DNA of 64,000 nucleotides from Acrocarpospora catenulata. GTDB lineage: Bacteria > Actinomycetota > Actinomycetes > Streptosporangiales > Streptosporangiaceae. Position numbers and translations under genes: made by a program. Below are positions 5,118 through 10,525 of the stretch, piece after piece; the first letter of the stretch is position 1; every line of letters starts with the position of its first letter. Location of the stretch: the NCBI RefSeq assembly GCF_018476525.1, contig NZ_JAHCST010000012.1:1-64000 (forward strand). The letters are read 5' to 3'. The notes below the pieces were generated by a model. It saw only the letters and a list, made by a program, of their open reading frames with translations, did not search any database and was not told the origin of the DNA.

Positions 5118-6877
5118 GCGAGAATGGACCGGCACCGCTGTTGACCGCGAAGAATCTCACCGTCAGCTTCACCACGCCGCGGAACGAGGTGGTGGCCGCG
5201 GTGCGTGGCATCGACTTGGCCCTCGGAGCGGGCGAGTGCCTCGCTCTGGTCGGCGAGTCGGGCTCGGGAAAGAGCGCCACGGCCCGCGCCGTGCTGGGCC
5301 TGACAGGCAGTCGTGCGACCGTCGATGCCGAGGAGTTGACCTTCGCCGGCGAGCAGCTCCTGGGGTTGGCCGAGCGCGACTGGCGGAGGTTGCGCGGCGC
5401 CCGCATCGGCTTCGTCCTGCAAGACGCGCTGACCTCACTGGACCCCCTGCGCCGGGTGGGCGACGAGGTCGCAGAGCCCTTGGTCGTGCATGAGCTGGGC
5501 AGCCGCCGAGATCGCGACGAGCGGGTGATCTCGCTGCTGCAGGGCGTCGGGATCCCCGATCCGCGGGTGCGCGCCCGGCAGTATCCACACGAACTGTCCG
5601 GAGGGCTGCGGCAACGAGCACTGATCGCCTCGGCCATCGCGGCATCCCCGTCGCTGGTGATCGCCGATGAGCCGACCACGGCCCTGGACGCGACCGTCCA
5701 GCGGCAGGTCCTCGATCTGCTCTCGGACATGCGTGACGCAGGCACGGCCATACTGTTGATCAGCCACGACCTGTCCGTGGTGGCGCGCTTGGCCGATCGA
5801 ATCGCGGTGATGGCCGCGGGCCTGATCGTCGAGCAGGGCACCCCGGACGACATCCTGCTGCGGCCAGCGCACCCCTACACGCGCGAGTTGCTCGCCGCGG
5901 TACCCACGTTCGGCGCGCCGGGACGAATCTTCCGCGCCGCAGCGGACGTGGACACGTCTCCCCGGGACTCGCCGACACGTCTGGCCGCGCCGTCGCGCGC
6001 GGACCCGAGCGGACCGGGACGTTCCCACCCGATCGGACGGACCATTCTTGAGCTCGATGCCGTCTCCAAGCGCTTCCGGTCGCCGGACGGCACATGGCGG
6101 CAGGCCGTCGACGGCGTCACCTTCGGTCTGCATGCCGGAGAGGCCCTCGGAATCGTCGGCGAATCCGGCTCGGGCAAGAGCACGACCGCGCAGATCGCGA
6201 TGGCCATGCTCGCCCCCGATCACGGCGAGGTGCGCCTCGACGGGGCCGCGTGGAGCGGGCTGCGAGAGCGTGAACGCCAATCCGAGCGTCACCGGATCCA
6301 GCTGATCTCCCAGGATCCGCTGAGCGCGTTCGATCCACGGTTCACCGTCGAGCGCATCATCGCCGAAGCCCTCGGACGACCCGGCCGTCGCGGCGCGATC
6401 AAGGCCCGGGCCGAGGTCACCGCGCTGCTTCGCCGCGTCGGGCTCGACGATGATGTGCTGCACCGACGTGGTCGTGAGCTCTCCGGCGGACAGCGCCAGC
6501 GTGTCGCGATTGCCCGGGCGATCGCCCCGCGACCGGAGGTGCTTGTCTGCGACGAGCCGGTGTCCGCTCTGGATGTGTCCGTGCAGGCCCGGATCCTCGC
6601 CCTGCTCGCGCAGCTGCGCCACGAGCTGGGGGTGGCACTGCTGCTCATCTCCCACGACCTCGGCGTGATCCATGAGGTCTGCGACCGCGTGCTCGTCATG
6701 AAGGACGGCACCATCGTCGAGCACGGGACCGTGACCGAGGTGCTCACCGCTCCCCGGCACCCGTACACCCACTCGCTCCTGGACAGCATCGCCTCGGACC
6801 GGTCACCGTCGCCCGCCTCCGCAAACACTGACCAGCACGACCCAGCGCTCACCTACCCGGGAGGAAACCAGCGATGA
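5114..6877 (+). CDS. Fused double ATPase of a peptide/nickel-type ABC transporter (DppD-DppF fusion)
   Basis: 587 aa with two complete ATPase domains in tandem. The first has Walker A GESGSGKS near residue 47, signature LSGGLRQR and Walker B VIADEP. The second has Walker A GESGSGKS near residue 349, signature LSGGQRQR and Walker B VCDEP. Each is followed by the oligopeptide-ABC C-terminal motif with HPYT. GTG 5114 overlaps the permease stop. One gene supplies both nucleotide-binding subunits. The 3' end overlaps the next start at 6874. A homologous 43-residue ATPase tail recurs at 10526-10657. Confidence 0.93.
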   Translation: MSENGPAPLLTAKNLTVSFTTPRNEVVAAVRGIDLALGAGECLALVGESGSGKSATARAVLGLTGSRATVDAEELTFAGEQLLGLAERDWRRLRGARIGFVLQDALTSLDPLRRVGDEVAEPLVVHELGSRRDRDERVISLLQGVGIPDPRVRARQYPHELSGGLRQRALIASAIAASPSLVIADEPTTALDATVQRQVLDLLSDMRDAGTAILLISHDLSVVARLADRIAVMAAGLIVEQGTPDDILLRPAHPYTRELLAAVPTFGAPGRIFRAAADVDTSPRDSPTRLAAPSRADPSGPGRSHPIGRTILELDAVSKRFRSPDGTWRQAVDGVTFGLHAGEALGIVGESGSGKSTTAQIAMAMLAPDHGEVRLDGAAWSGLRERERQSERHRIQLISQDPLSAFDPRFTVERIIAEALGRPGRRGAIKARAEVTALLRRVGLDDDVLHRRGRELSGGQRQRVAIARAIAPRPEVLVCDEPVSALDVSVQARILALLAQLRHELGVALLLISHDLGVIHEVCDRVLVMKDGTIVEHGTVTEVLTAPRHPYTHSLLDSIASDRSPSPASANTDQHDPALTYPGGNQR

Positions 6878-6960
6878 CACCCGCCACAGACGCCGCACCA
6901 CTGGCGAGGCGGAGCGCGTCCGCATCCGGCTACAAGCGCGATATGGAGGATTTCGCATGA
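6874..6960 (+). CDS. 28-residue coupled small ORF, possibly a collapsed gene
   Basis: ATG 6874 overlaps the ATPase stop (ATGA) and its own stop overlaps the next start at 6957 (ATGA), so the translation chain continues through it. The product has no recognisable domain. It may be a real short linker ORF or the fused ends of a gene with a large in-frame deletion; its MTPATDAAPLARR start looks like an ordinary protein N-terminus. Function unknown. Confidence 0.4.
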   Translation: MTPATDAAPLARRSASASGYKRDMEDFA

Positions 6961-7046
6961 CCGCCCCGCGCAGGCTGCGGTTCTCGTCACTCGCCCTCCC
7001 GCCCGGCGGGCACCTCGCCGCGTGGCGGCATCCCCGGCGCAACCGG
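6957..7046 (+). pseudogene. N-terminal fragment of an LLM flavin-dependent monooxygenase (NtaA/SnaA/DszA-like)
   Basis: About 30 codons remain. RLRFSSLALPPGGHLAAWRHP is the typical N-terminus of the nitrilotriacetate/desulfurization monooxygenase family and resembles the starts of the intact genes at 12024 and 13151. The homology stops near 7046, where sequence from an ISL3-type transposase begins. It would have been the last coupled gene of the ABC operon. End coordinate is approximate. Confidence 0.65.
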
Positions 7047-7049
7047 ACG

Positions 7050-7270
7050 CGGAACTCAACCTGGCCGCGCCGCCGCGTACGCTCGACGAATCGAGGAGGC
7101 CGGGTTCCCTGCGGGCAGGTGGTGGCCAGGCACCGGAAGCGCTGGACCGACAAGTTGATCGTCATCCGGCGTCCGGTCAGCGCCATGTCGTCCAGTCTGC
7201 GGCGATACCGGCCATGCCGGTGCCGCGTCACGGTCTTGCAGGTTGGGCATCTGGCCTCGGTCGTGCGCGG
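7050..7270 (-). pseudogene. N-terminal fragment of an ISL3-family transposase
   Basis: On the minus strand, RCPTCKTVTRHRHGRYRRRL followed by a segment with RMTINLSVQRFRC and TTCPQ matches the N-terminal zinc-ribbon region of ISL3 transposases (paired CxxC, then RRF-C). The downstream catalytic part is missing. It is fused in frame to the end of the IS3 transposase frame, making an artificial long reading frame. Boundaries are approximate: one edge abuts the monooxygenase fragment, the other the IS3 terminus near 7273. Confidence 0.6.
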
Positions 7271-7282
7271 AAGTGGACACGC

Positions 7283-7782
7283 ATCGGGGTTGTCATGCGG
7301 CGAGCGTGATCGTATCGGACTGCTGCTGATGCCGATGTTCGTAGGCGATCGATAGCCGTTGGCCGAATGCCTGCGGTGGGTGTTGTAGCGGACCAGCCAC
7401 CGGAACACGGTGTTCCGGCAGATCGAAGGCCCTTCGTAGCGGTGAGCGCCGCGCAAGGTCTCCCGCTTGAGCGAGGCGTGGAAACTTTCGCACGCGGCAT
7501 TGTCGGCAGATGTGCCGACGGCCCCCATCGACTGGGTGATGCCCAACTCGGCGCACAGAGCGGCGAACTCCTTCGAGGTGTATTGAGCTCCATGATCGGT
7601 GTGAAAGGTCGCACCGGCCAGGCTTCCGCGCGTGTGGCAGGCCGCGAGTAAGGCGTCGCAGACCAGTTCGGTGCGCATGTGGGTGGCGATCGACCAGCCC
7701 ACGACCCGGCGGCTGAAACAGTCCAGGACAGTCGCCAGGTAGAGGAACTCACCATCGCCGACCGGCAGATACGTGATGTCGG
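7283..7782 (-). pseudogene. IS3 transposase orfB, C-terminal half (rve domain), separated by the group II intron
   Basis: Encodes the integrase core. The first catalytic Asp is in DITYLPVG immediately next to the intron junction, the second in FHTDHGAQY, and the Glu in NAACESFHASLK. The end has the usual IS3 motif RRHSANGYRSP. Joining 9711 to 7782 restores KYMG-DITYL in frame. No stop is present before the IS end, so the frame reads through the terminal repeat into the ISL3 fragment. Without an intron-free copy this transposase is inactive. Confidence 0.85.
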
Positions 7783-9710
7783 TGTGCCACGAACGCAGGA
7801 AGAGAGGTGCGGAATGTAGGTAGGCGCCTCTTGAAATGCGGTGCTGCGCGAATGATGAAGGTTGGCCCTTCGGAGTCGCCCTGCGGGGGGAGGCTTCAAA
7901 CCGCCACATGCTGCGTTGGCTGAAGACCGTCGTGGTGAGCGATGTGGAAAAGGCGTCGTGAGAGGCGTCAGGTGGGGATCAGGAAGGCGAGCGCAAGCGA
8001 ATCGCTGATGACGTGTCGAAAACGTATTCAGATGGCATCGAAACTGGAGGTGTAGATATGGCTCCAGGACAAGTCTGGCGGATACCCGTTTACTGGCCAG
8101 ATGGTGCCCGGCATGGAGGCGACGCGAGTCTGATCTGCTGCTTTCGCGTGGAACGTGGGAAGGCGAGTCCCGATAGTTCCGCCAGGTCGGCGGTGAAAGG
8201 AAGCATCCCGAGCGGCAGAAACCGTGAGGGATTGAGTACCGGTGCGGGACTCGTCGGCGGACCGGCCCGTAGTAGTGATGAAATCCCTGTAATGGGGGTG
8301 GAGCGAAGGGGCCGGGTCATCCGTGGCTGTGTTCGTTCGATCAACCAGGCGCTGTCCTGGGAGGAGTCGCGTGGGCGAGCTGAAATCAACAGACAAGTCG
8401 TTTGAGATCTCGAAGTGGGAAGTATGGGAGGCATGGGAGAAGGTCAAGGCCAATAAGGGTGCGCCGGGAGTGGACGGCTGCTCGATCGAGGAATTCGAGA
8501 AAGATCTGCGGAGCAACCTCTACAAGATCTGGAACCGGATGTCTTCGGGCAGCTACTTCCCGCCTCCGGTAAGAGCGGTGGAGATACCGAAATCGCATGG
8601 CGGAGGGACCAGAATTCTTGGCGTTCCTACTGTCGCGGACAGGATCGCGCAGACCGTGGTCGCGGTCCGGCTGGAGAAGGAATTGGAACCGAAGTTCCAT
8701 GCCGACTCCTACGGGTACCGGCCCAAACGGTCGGCCCTGGACGCGGTGGGAAAGTGCCGAGAGCGCTGCTTCAAGACCGACTGGGTTATCGATCTCGACA
8801 TCCAGAGATTCTTCGACAGCGTTCCCTGGGGCCTCATGGTCAAAGCGGTGGAGGCCAACACCGACCAGCGTTGGGTCGTGCTCTATGTGGAGCGATGGCT
8901 GCGTGCGCCGCTTCAAATGCCCGACGGAACCTTGCAACAGCGAGACCGTGGAACCCCACAGGGCTCAGCGGTCTCACCCGTGCTGGCAAATCTGTTCCTG
9001 CATTATGCGTTCGATATGTGGATGGCTCGGGAGTTCCCGACCGTGTCCTTCGAACGCTACGTGGATGACGCGGTCGTGCACTGCGTCAGTGAACGCCAAG
9101 CCATGAAAGTGGTGGAAGCGATAAGGGACAGGATGGAAGAAGTCGGGCTGCGATTACATCCCGACAAAACCCGGATCGTCTACTGCAAGGACGCAAATCG
9201 GCGCGGCTCGTATGAGCATACGTCGTTCACGTTTTTGGGTTTTACGTTCCGTGTCCGCGCGGCGCGTAGCAAGTACGGAGTGACTTTCTCGTGCTTCCTG
9301 CCCGCGATCAGCAAGGAAGCCCTTAAGAAGATCAGCGCCGAGATGCGTCGATGGCGCATCCATCGGCGTACGAGCCATACCTTCGCTCAACTCGCACGGG
9401 TCATCAATCCGATCGTGCGAGGGTGGATGCAATACTACGGAGCGTTCTACCACTCCGCGCTGAAACCACTCCTCCGGCGCATCAACGCCTACCTGGTGCG
9501 CTGGATCCGCAGAAAGTACAAACGACTGGCCGGGTTCAATAAAGCCAAGACGTGCTTCCAAGGAATCACGCAGCGATACCCAAGGATGTTCGCTCACTGG
9601 CGCTGGTCCCGCAATTTCTGGTGACAAGGATGGCAAGAGCCGTGTAATGGGAGACTATTACGCACGGTTCTGTGGGGGCCGGAGGGTGAGATTCCCTCCG
9701 GCTACCCGAC
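7783..9710 (+). mobile_element. Group II intron (retroelement) inserted antisense into the IS3 transposase gene
   Basis: The 5' end is GTGTG at 7783, fitting the GUGYG consensus. The 3' end is CTACCCGAC ending at 9710. A 34-nt domain V hairpin (9637-9670, starting GAGCCGTG, ending CACGGTTC) is followed by domain VI with a GC-rich stem and a candidate branch A at 9704. Removing 7783-9710 restores the IS3 orfB frame exactly (Met-Gly-Asp-Ile), which confirms both boundaries. The intron encodes a reverse transcriptase (8371-9624). It runs opposite to orfB, so RNA splicing cannot rescue the transposase. I could not identify EBS1/EBS2 by eye. Confidence 0.9.
8371..9624 (+). CDS. ltrA: Group II intron-encoded reverse transcriptase/maturase
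   Basis: 417 aa. GTG 8371 is preceded by GGGAGGAGTC and gives the common N-terminus VGELKSTDK; an upstream in-frame ATG at 8323 is less likely. RT motifs include NKGAPGVDG, GYRPKRSALDA, LDIQRFFDS, GTPQGSAVSPVLANLFL and the active-site YVDD at about residues 230-233. The group II maturase (X) domain covers the last ~90 residues (HTFAQLARVINPIVRGWMQYYG). There is no C-terminal HNH endonuclease, so mobility would rely on replication-fork priming, as in other En-minus introns. Confidence 0.95.
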   Translation: MGELKSTDKSFEISKWEVWEAWEKVKANKGAPGVDGCSIEEFEKDLRSNLYKIWNRMSSGSYFPPPVRAVEIPKSHGGGTRILGVPTVADRIAQTVVAVRLEKELEPKFHADSYGYRPKRSALDAVGKCRERCFKTDWVIDLDIQRFFDSVPWGLMVKAVEANTDQRWVVLYVERWLRAPLQMPDGTLQQRDRGTPQGSAVSPVLANLFLHYAFDMWMAREFPTVSFERYVDDAVVHCVSERQAMKVVEAIRDRMEEVGLRLHPDKTRIVYCKDANRRGSYEHTSFTFLGFTFRVRAARSKYGVTFSCFLPAISKEALKKISAEMRRWRIHRRTSHTFAQLARVINPIVRGWMQYYGAFYHSALKPLLRRINAYLVRWIRRKYKRLAGFNKAKTCFQGITQRYPRMFAHWRWSRNFW

Positions 9711-10114
9711 CCCATGTACTTGAGGCCGGGCGCGCCGACGGTGAAGTCCCGGCCGAACAGGTCGGGCACCGGCGTCGCCGAGGGTTCGCAGACGGTGGTG
9801 CGGACGCGTCGGCGCAGGCGGGTGCCGGTAATGGCGAACTTGCGCATCACCCGGACCACCCGCTTCTCGTTGATCTTCTGGCCGTCGGCGCGTAGTTCGG
9901 CGGTCACCCGCGGTGAGCCGTAGGCGCCGTCGGAGCCGGCGTGCACGACGCGGATCTCCTGTGCCGGCGCCTGGTCGGCCGCCTCACGCGCCGCGCGGGC
10001 CTGGGCGCCCTTGCGCCATGTGTAGTAGCTGGAGCGGTTCACGCTCAGCACCTGGCACAGCCGCTTCACGCCGAAGGCGCGGTGGTGGTCGTCAACGAAC
10101 TGGAAGCGGTTCAC
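9711..10114 (-). pseudogene. IS3 transposase orfB, N-terminal half
   Basis: Starts at GTG 10114, whose GTGA overlaps the orfA stop. It contains the HTH_21 region (YGSPRVTAELR, INEKRVVRVMR) typical of IS3 OrfB, and ends at FTVGAPGLKYMG where the intron begins. Together with 7283-7782 it makes a normal-length OrfB of about 300 residues. Confidence 0.88.
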
Positions 10115-10452
10115 CAGTTTGTCTCCCCGGCGAAATACTTGGCCGCCTTGCGAAGAATGTCGCGTTCGGTGGCCAGTTTCCGCTCGCTGGCCTCCAGCTG
10201 CCGTACCCGCTCCTCCAACTGGCGGATGCGCTCGGATGCCTGGTCGGCCTGTGCCGGTGACGAGTCGCGAGCGGGGGGCCGGGCGGCCCGCGCCCCGCCG
10301 TTCTTCTCACGCGCTCGCAGCACCCACTCGCGCAGGCTACCCCGGCTCACGCCCAGGTCGGCGGCGATGCCCTTGTAGGTCGCCCCTTCGGTGGACTCGT
10401 ACAAGGCCACGGCATCGGCCTTGAACTCCTCCGAGTAGTCCTTCAACGCCAT
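10111..10452 (-). CDS. IS3-family transposase OrfA (helix-turn-helix)
   Basis: 113 aa from ATG 10452 (MALKDYSEEFKADAV). It has the HTH_Tnp_1 start (YSEEFKADAVALYESTEG), a helix-turn-helix (YKGIAADLGVSRGSLREWV) and a C-terminal leucine-zipper-like coiled coil (ERIRQLEERVRQLEASERKL) used for multimerisation. Its stop overlaps the orfB start by 4 bases. The gene itself appears intact. Confidence 0.9.
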   Translation of the reverse strand: MALKDYSEEFKADAVALYESTEGATYKGIAADLGVSRGSLREWVLRAREKNGGARAARPPARDSSPAQADQASERIRQLEERVRQLEASERKLATERDILRKAAKYFAGETNW

Positions 10453-10525
10453 CGGCGGTCTTCTCGCTTCCTCTGAATCAAGCAAGATCCAGTATCAGCG
10501 TGTCCACCAACCGGGGGGAGGTCCC

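Follow-up and report, generated by a model that had tools for sequence, protein, structure and literature searches.

Dai and Zimmerly reportedly described, in 2003, nested group II introns that home to conserved sites of mobile elements. In the literature, group II introns that lie inside other introns, with conserved mobile-element sites as their targets, occur in Methanosarcina and as twintrons in T. elongatus (PMC2882425), and homing of group II introns to insertion sequences (IS), IS3-like transposases included, is already described (PMC5894124, PMC3522654). RmInt1 is a class D intron residing in the IS630-type ISRm2011-2 of Sinorhizobium meliloti (PMC5894124), which splices, though poorly (PMC4238363), and whose mobility is tied to the replication fork (PMC8914252), and the class A intron E.c.I4 of Escherichia coli (PMC3552965) homes to specific positions of IS3-like transposases (PMC3522654). 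Our own search for the position of E.c.I4 in IS911, made in the CP4-6 region of MG1655, did not find it.

We have analysed a stretch of 64,000 nucleotides from Acrocarpospora catenulata (hereafter the window), in which a reading of the letters (the original prediction) had placed a full-length group II intron antisense at the catalytic motif of an IS3 transposase. It is highly probable, in our judgement, that the element is a mobile class D intron that homes to the antisense of the IS3 first-Asp codons, where all members of its lineage found so far lie; such an intron seems built to prey on IS3 elements.

Results

Intron anatomy and insertion site

The intron comprises the following features.

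7782..9710, + strand: group II intron, full length, 1929 bases (GTGTG start, Rfam matches, empty-site comparison)
7857..7973, + strand: part of domain I (Rfam group-II-D1D4-2, 106.8 bits, gathering threshold 36)
8371..9624, + strand: RT/maturase, 417 aa, RT active-site motif YVDD (TIGR04416, RVT_1, GIIM; no En domain matched)
9635..9710, + strand: domains V and VI with the intron 3' end (Rfam Intron_gpII RF00029, 63.3 bits, gathering threshold 40)

The intron starts with GTGTGCCACGAACG at base 7782, one base before the start at 7783 given originally, and ends with CTACCCGAC at base 9710, in keeping with the end rule of mobile group II introns (GUGYG / AY; here GTGTG and AC, respectively). Its RT/maturase frame is located between the domain I match and domain V, which is the position of domain IV. 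A fold had been expected in the 5' part (7782-8370); folded alone, this part was no better than its shuffles (z -0.82), an energy that by itself is uninformative, whereas Rfam group-II-D1D4-2 did match within the stretch, so that the ribozyme claim rests on Rfam and on the EBS tests described below.

The RT frame scores 405 bits with TIGR04416 and also matches RVT_1 and GIIM, and no endonuclease domain is present among its profile matches (8371-9624), as had been predicted. A copy on pSymB of S. meliloti 2011 (locus L130) shows 50.6% identity with it over 99% of the RT length; this copy lies within a DDE_3-domain transposase, in a part of the record that carries no annotation, and is very probably RmInt1. 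On sequence grounds, that is, the lack of an En domain and the RT identity to the S. meliloti copy, we provisionally assign the window intron to class D, RmInt1-like, the S. meliloti copy being included in an RT tree that holds no reference set of other intron classes. The two other RTs of the A. catenulata genome are 32 and 34% identical to the intron RT.

The surrounding element is laid out as follows.

7274..10506 (about), no strand assigned: IS3 element with the intron, ends TGGACACGC and GCGTGTCCA, 9 bp matched (plasmid alignment and sequence)
7295..7780, - strand: IS3 OrfB, part from DITY on (translation; tblastn matches in 24 of 30 vacant-site loci)
7768..7781, + strand: target (5' exon), with IBS2 at 7768-7773 and IBS1 at 7776-7781 (sequence, pairing)
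9713..10114, - strand: IS3 OrfB, part before the first catalytic Asp (NF033516 transpos_IS3, 101 bits; HTH_21 above cut-off)
10111..10485, - strand: IS3 OrfA (HTH_Tnp_1 above cut-off; NF033516, 41.9 bits, below cut-off)

The NF033516 match of the OrfB N-terminal part is a fragment and falls below the cut-off of 160, yet this is its best model. The second D (HTDHG) and the E (CESF) are present in the OrfB part at 7295..7780 and, by their motifs, we take DITY, HTDHG and CESF to be the catalytic residues of the window OrfB. The OrfA/OrfB arrangement, the DDE triad and the likeness to annotated IS3 elements indicate that the host is a member of the IS3 family.

Read on the - strand, the joined flanks give KYM-G-DITY with no frame shift, and the target at 7768..7781 is the antisense of the D-I-T-Y-L codon region plus the last Gly base. 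The cut thus falls within the Gly codon (GG|C), one base ahead of the first catalytic Asp codon, and not at the codon boundary as first proposed. A Streptomyces plasmid carries an uninterrupted IS3 whose alignment with the joined flanks runs through the junction without a break, the junction lying within 26 identical bases, and the alignment identity of the joined flanks to a plasmid locus annotated as IS3 family transposase is 77.6%. The junction query matched 73 plasmid records, none of which covers more than 80% of it; among the 30 matches listed, 29 end at query base 91 or 92 (window 7780-7781), and the remaining one (H116) extends eight bases further past the intron boundary. The Rfam matches, the junctions and this empty-site alignment uphold the full-length group II intron and its antisense orientation (intron on the + strand, OrfB on the - strand).

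No target duplication was seen beside the IS ends in the window. Within 6803-7400 the OrfB frame overruns the IS end and another frame resembles the usual OrfB tail; a frameshift near the OrfB C-terminus is probable. The interruption of the OrfB frame by the intron suggests that the IS3 would have lost transposition, the "disarming" of the earlier reading.

Relatives at the same codon

Relatives were taken from the best 80 of 136 contig loci, from genome searches and from plasmid records, and their junctions were read. The genome searches, whose counts include the own genome, matched 29 of 345, 6 of 394 and 5 of 396 genomes at the cut-offs applied; the 5' end was readable in 94 of 119 loci and missing in 25, and 11 matches of the 345-genome search are not among the loci read. 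A search of viral contigs found nothing, and three one-mismatch junction matches (L123, L124, L126) were set aside since they lack an RT.

Four introns interrupt the identical IS3 codon in antisense, namely those of the window, L004 (Micromonospora), L005 (Streptomyces) and L007 (Kineosporia), and they constitute a single RT clade with an SH-aLRT of 96 in a tree of 106 rows that was built by a quick method, without bootstrap. No fifth member was seen in the scans of 345, 394 and 396 genomes, in which unread loci remain. Between the window and L004, intron DNA identity is 89%, as against 59 and 63% for the host OrfB before and after the junction; for L005 the values are 84% versus 66 and 74%, and for L007, whose OrfB is open for just 49 and 81 residues on either side of the junction, 76% versus 49% (49 residues) and 41% (78 residues). 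Host IS3 proteins are therefore 41-74% identical to that of the window and intron DNA 76-89%, and such a far greater divergence of the hosts implies that the intron has passed from one IS3 element to others, at this same codon.

A shared site and a single clade would also be seen if there had been one entry into an ancestral IS3, the four copies representing the same intron-bearing element spread by transposition or gene transfer. We consider this very improbable, given how much more the host OrfBs differ than the introns do (59-63% as against 89% at the DNA level for the window and L004) and given that an interrupted IS3 makes no intact OrfB, an antisense intron not being spliceable from its message. 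Homing to the IS3 motif, as originally put forward, is instead supported by this clade, all four rows of which occupy the same codon in different IS3s, and by the EBS pairing. Relatives at non-IS3 sites, named at the outset as a finding that would count against it, exist outside the four-member clade and not within; out there relatives sit at other sites, many of which could not be placed.

Of 342 genomes of the order, 48, that of A. catenulata among them, contain a vacant site, against 0 matches for the reversed-pattern control columns in the same genomes; IS3 OrfB was matched in 24 of the 30 vacant-site loci retrieved and not in the other 6 (tblastn, mostly 60-75% identity). The anticipated supply of IS3 targets is thus found in genomes of the order and in these 24 of 30 loci, and the anticipated spread through many IS3 copies of the own genome is not, A. 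catenulata having one occupied intron copy and one exact vacant site. We regard it as unlikely, if by no means negligible, that homing belongs to the past and that the window copy is now dead: the single copy in the genome and a C-terminal OrfB frame that overruns the IS end, so that the IS itself looks decayed, speak for such a history, and an open RT with YVDD, its RT and maturase domains, domain V/VI and the EBS, all of them present, speak against it.

Pairing of the guides with the target

Both guides sought in the 5' part were found, and both pair with the site.

8023..8028, + strand: EBS2, CGTATT (pairs with GATACG at 7768-7773, score 5.5 of 6)
8054..8059, + strand: EBS1, AGATAT, in a hairpin loop (pairs with ATGTCG at 7776-7781, score 4.5 of 6)

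EBS1 pairs imperfectly (mismatch at -1, wobble at -4), and EBS2 has a single wobble, on a first codon base. At -10, EBS2 tracks the host in the window (G against C) and in L004 and L007 (C against G), and in L005 an A against G breaks this match. A first guess for EBS1, TGGCATCG (8034-8041), was dropped, since introns aimed at other targets largely share this stretch.

Among the 81 introns with loops found (8 others failed, and the anchor failed in L007), EBS1 scores 5.33 of 6 with its own exon versus 4.16 with the exons of others, EBS2 scores 4.02 of 5 versus 3.24, and 0 of 10000 permutations were as good as the own-exon pairing. In the four loci of the clade the true site ranks 1 of 3172, 1 of 2478, 1 of 2200 and 3 of 3172 positions, with a guide register picked when the site was already known; that of the window is the best of 3172 positions around its IS3, and in L007 another nearby position outscores the true one. 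The window EBS1 is weak: 15 of the 81 introns score 4.5 of 6 or less, and, counting its own, 41 of the 81 exons match it to at least the same score. Such an imperfect EBS1, mismatched at -1, and the use of other sites by the next relatives would fit a window copy that had strayed from another preferred site into IS3 by low-specificity retrotransposition, to which we give hardly any credence, since three relatives share its codon and orientation and it is at third codon positions that EBS1 departs from perfect pairing.

Under the homing reading, the intron RNA and its RT/maturase would recognise the antisense strand of the IS3 first-Asp codons via EBS2 and EBS1, and the intron would reverse-splice into the recognised strand and then be copied by its own RT; with no endonuclease, it would probably use the replication fork, as described for RmInt1. 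Present activity of the intron, like the use of the fork, we infer.

Target sites of other class D introns

We take the catalytic residues of the target enzymes below to be those indicated by sequence motifs, the sites lying at most six codons away; target genes were identified partly by eye. Such sites are, in addition to the IS3 first-Asp site DITY (antisense; window, L004, L005, L007), the IS3 DNA..E site (antisense; L111, L113), the FIDE site of IS630 (L130), the WHLDE site of IS6 (L056, L060, L063), the HADE site of IS66 (L066), the WNKI|E site of ISAzo13 (L061) and, in a second set of introns, an rve-type WDI|T, sense (L178), and HWGIE of ISAs1 (L180, family assigned by eye and from neighbouring annotation). 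The L130 junction, FIDE|T, lies at what we presume to be the first catalytic Asp, like the window site. YADD of reverse transcriptases accounts for 12 introns in the first set and 2 in the second; those in sense at or beside it are L051, L053, L055, L057, L059, L064, L067, L070, L071, L072, L077 and L109 and, in the second set, L170 and L171. L111, L113 and L129, with RTs about 57-58% identical, are antisense insertions into IS3 that precede the DDE Glu by a few codons, and this location is a second antisense IS3 site.

Other sites are away from catalytic residues, several of their family names being given by eye: two IS5-type transposase sites (L076, L177 and L179; L027), the starts of IS21 (L128) and IS1595 (L052), IS110 (L042), an IS91 type (L073), an integrase-like gene (L020), KYADH of IS66 (L175, L181), a point in IS3 some ten codons beyond the Glu (L167, L169) and a position near an IS4/5-type gene start (L046). 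The end of IS3 OrfA (EFLKK, EVMGK and alike) is occupied in sense by L022, L026, L029, L038, L048, L082, L116 and L118, where the sequence is rich in A and similar to the frameshift signal of IS3. For the unplaced loci, 183 candidate flank peptides were collected, of which 141 were scanned against Pfam, 30 of them again singly. L101 (IS30), labelled as a catalytic site in the tree, was then dropped, its right flank being another transposase.

Introns of L117, L120 and L122, from one genome, and of L013 lie at a ..LDTGQ.R.N.YH[HR]|PE motif of related genes, which by eye we presume to be like HNH/13E12-type repeat proteins. Those of L010, L023 and L128 are, by eye, nested introns, beside or within domain I of a second group II intron. 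L019, L020, L021 and L054 of Streptomyces sp. NBC_00154 have identical RTs at four different sites; in three of them CTGGTAGCC precedes the junction, suggestive of a homing motif with low specificity.

Third codon positions in EBS1

The wobble test was confined to EBS1 and to exon bases T or G, where the guide may use Watson-Crick or wobble pairing. In the window clade, 16 of 16 first- and second-base pairs are Watson-Crick and the 8 third bases all show a wobble (-4) or a mismatch (-1). Over the eight coding target groups of the first set (24 introns), wobble occurs at 19 of 21 third positions versus 1 of 40 others; adding the IS3 OrfA-end and HNH-type groups weakens the contrast to 20 of 22 versus 8 of 54 (2 and 46 Watson-Crick, respectively). 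The second set consists of 16 plasmid introns gathered after the rule was formed, 12 of them with a readable coding target (left out were L176, with an uncertain 5' end, and L166, L173 and L174, with no coding target placed); it gave wobble at 10 of 12 third positions versus 0 of 21 others, in a reading that was not blind, frames and pairs coming from one output, and on targets that partly repeat those of the first set (YADD, IS6, IS5). The Fisher values treat related introns as independent; by target group they are 0.007 and 0.005. Contrary third positions are those of L061, L113, L177 and L179. The automatic best-6-mer choice differed from the hairpin loop for the window, L004, L005, L007, L055, L057, L070 and L072; the loop 6-mer was used for all of these but L072, which was excluded because its junction is shifted by two bases.

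The guide may accordingly spare itself the third base and tolerate synonymous codons of its target; drift of the host at silent positions, once the intron is in place, could also produce this pattern with no selection acting on the guide.

Discussion

We tentatively advance, with rather less than even confidence, a wider reading in which class D introns are specialised on mobile elements via the codons of catalytic residues, on either strand, their EBS1 being strict at bases 1-2 and slack (G-U or mismatch) at the third, so that one guide fits synonymous active sites. The residues that we assume to be catalytic here are the first Asp of IS3, IS630, IS6 and IS66, the Glu of ISAzo13, ISAs1 and IS3, and YADD. 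If true, the third-base rule would explain how a guide of roughly 12 bases keeps its targets among diverged transposases, and it would predict the target ranges of such introns. No report of an active-site or third-base pattern was found in the literature searched, in which subscription journals are sparsely covered, and the pattern is a more interesting lead than the single element.

Set against the systems described before, the window intron is most like RmInt1 (class D, IIB3), with which it has in common the lack of an En domain, an RT 50.6% identical to that of L130 and an IS transposase as target (PMC5894124, PMC4238363); RmInt1 differs in its sense orientation and in its IS family (IS630), whereas the window intron is antisense in IS3. 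E.c.I4 is of class A (PMC3552965), in contrast to the class D to which the window intron appears to belong. The nested introns of Methanosarcina and T. elongatus likewise use conserved mobile-element sites, but their target is another intron and not IS3. The present locus would carry the IS homing of RmInt1-like introns over to actinobacteria, and there to the antisense strand of the codons for the IS3 active site, with one intron lineage that keeps its IS3 aim across divergent IS3 elements.
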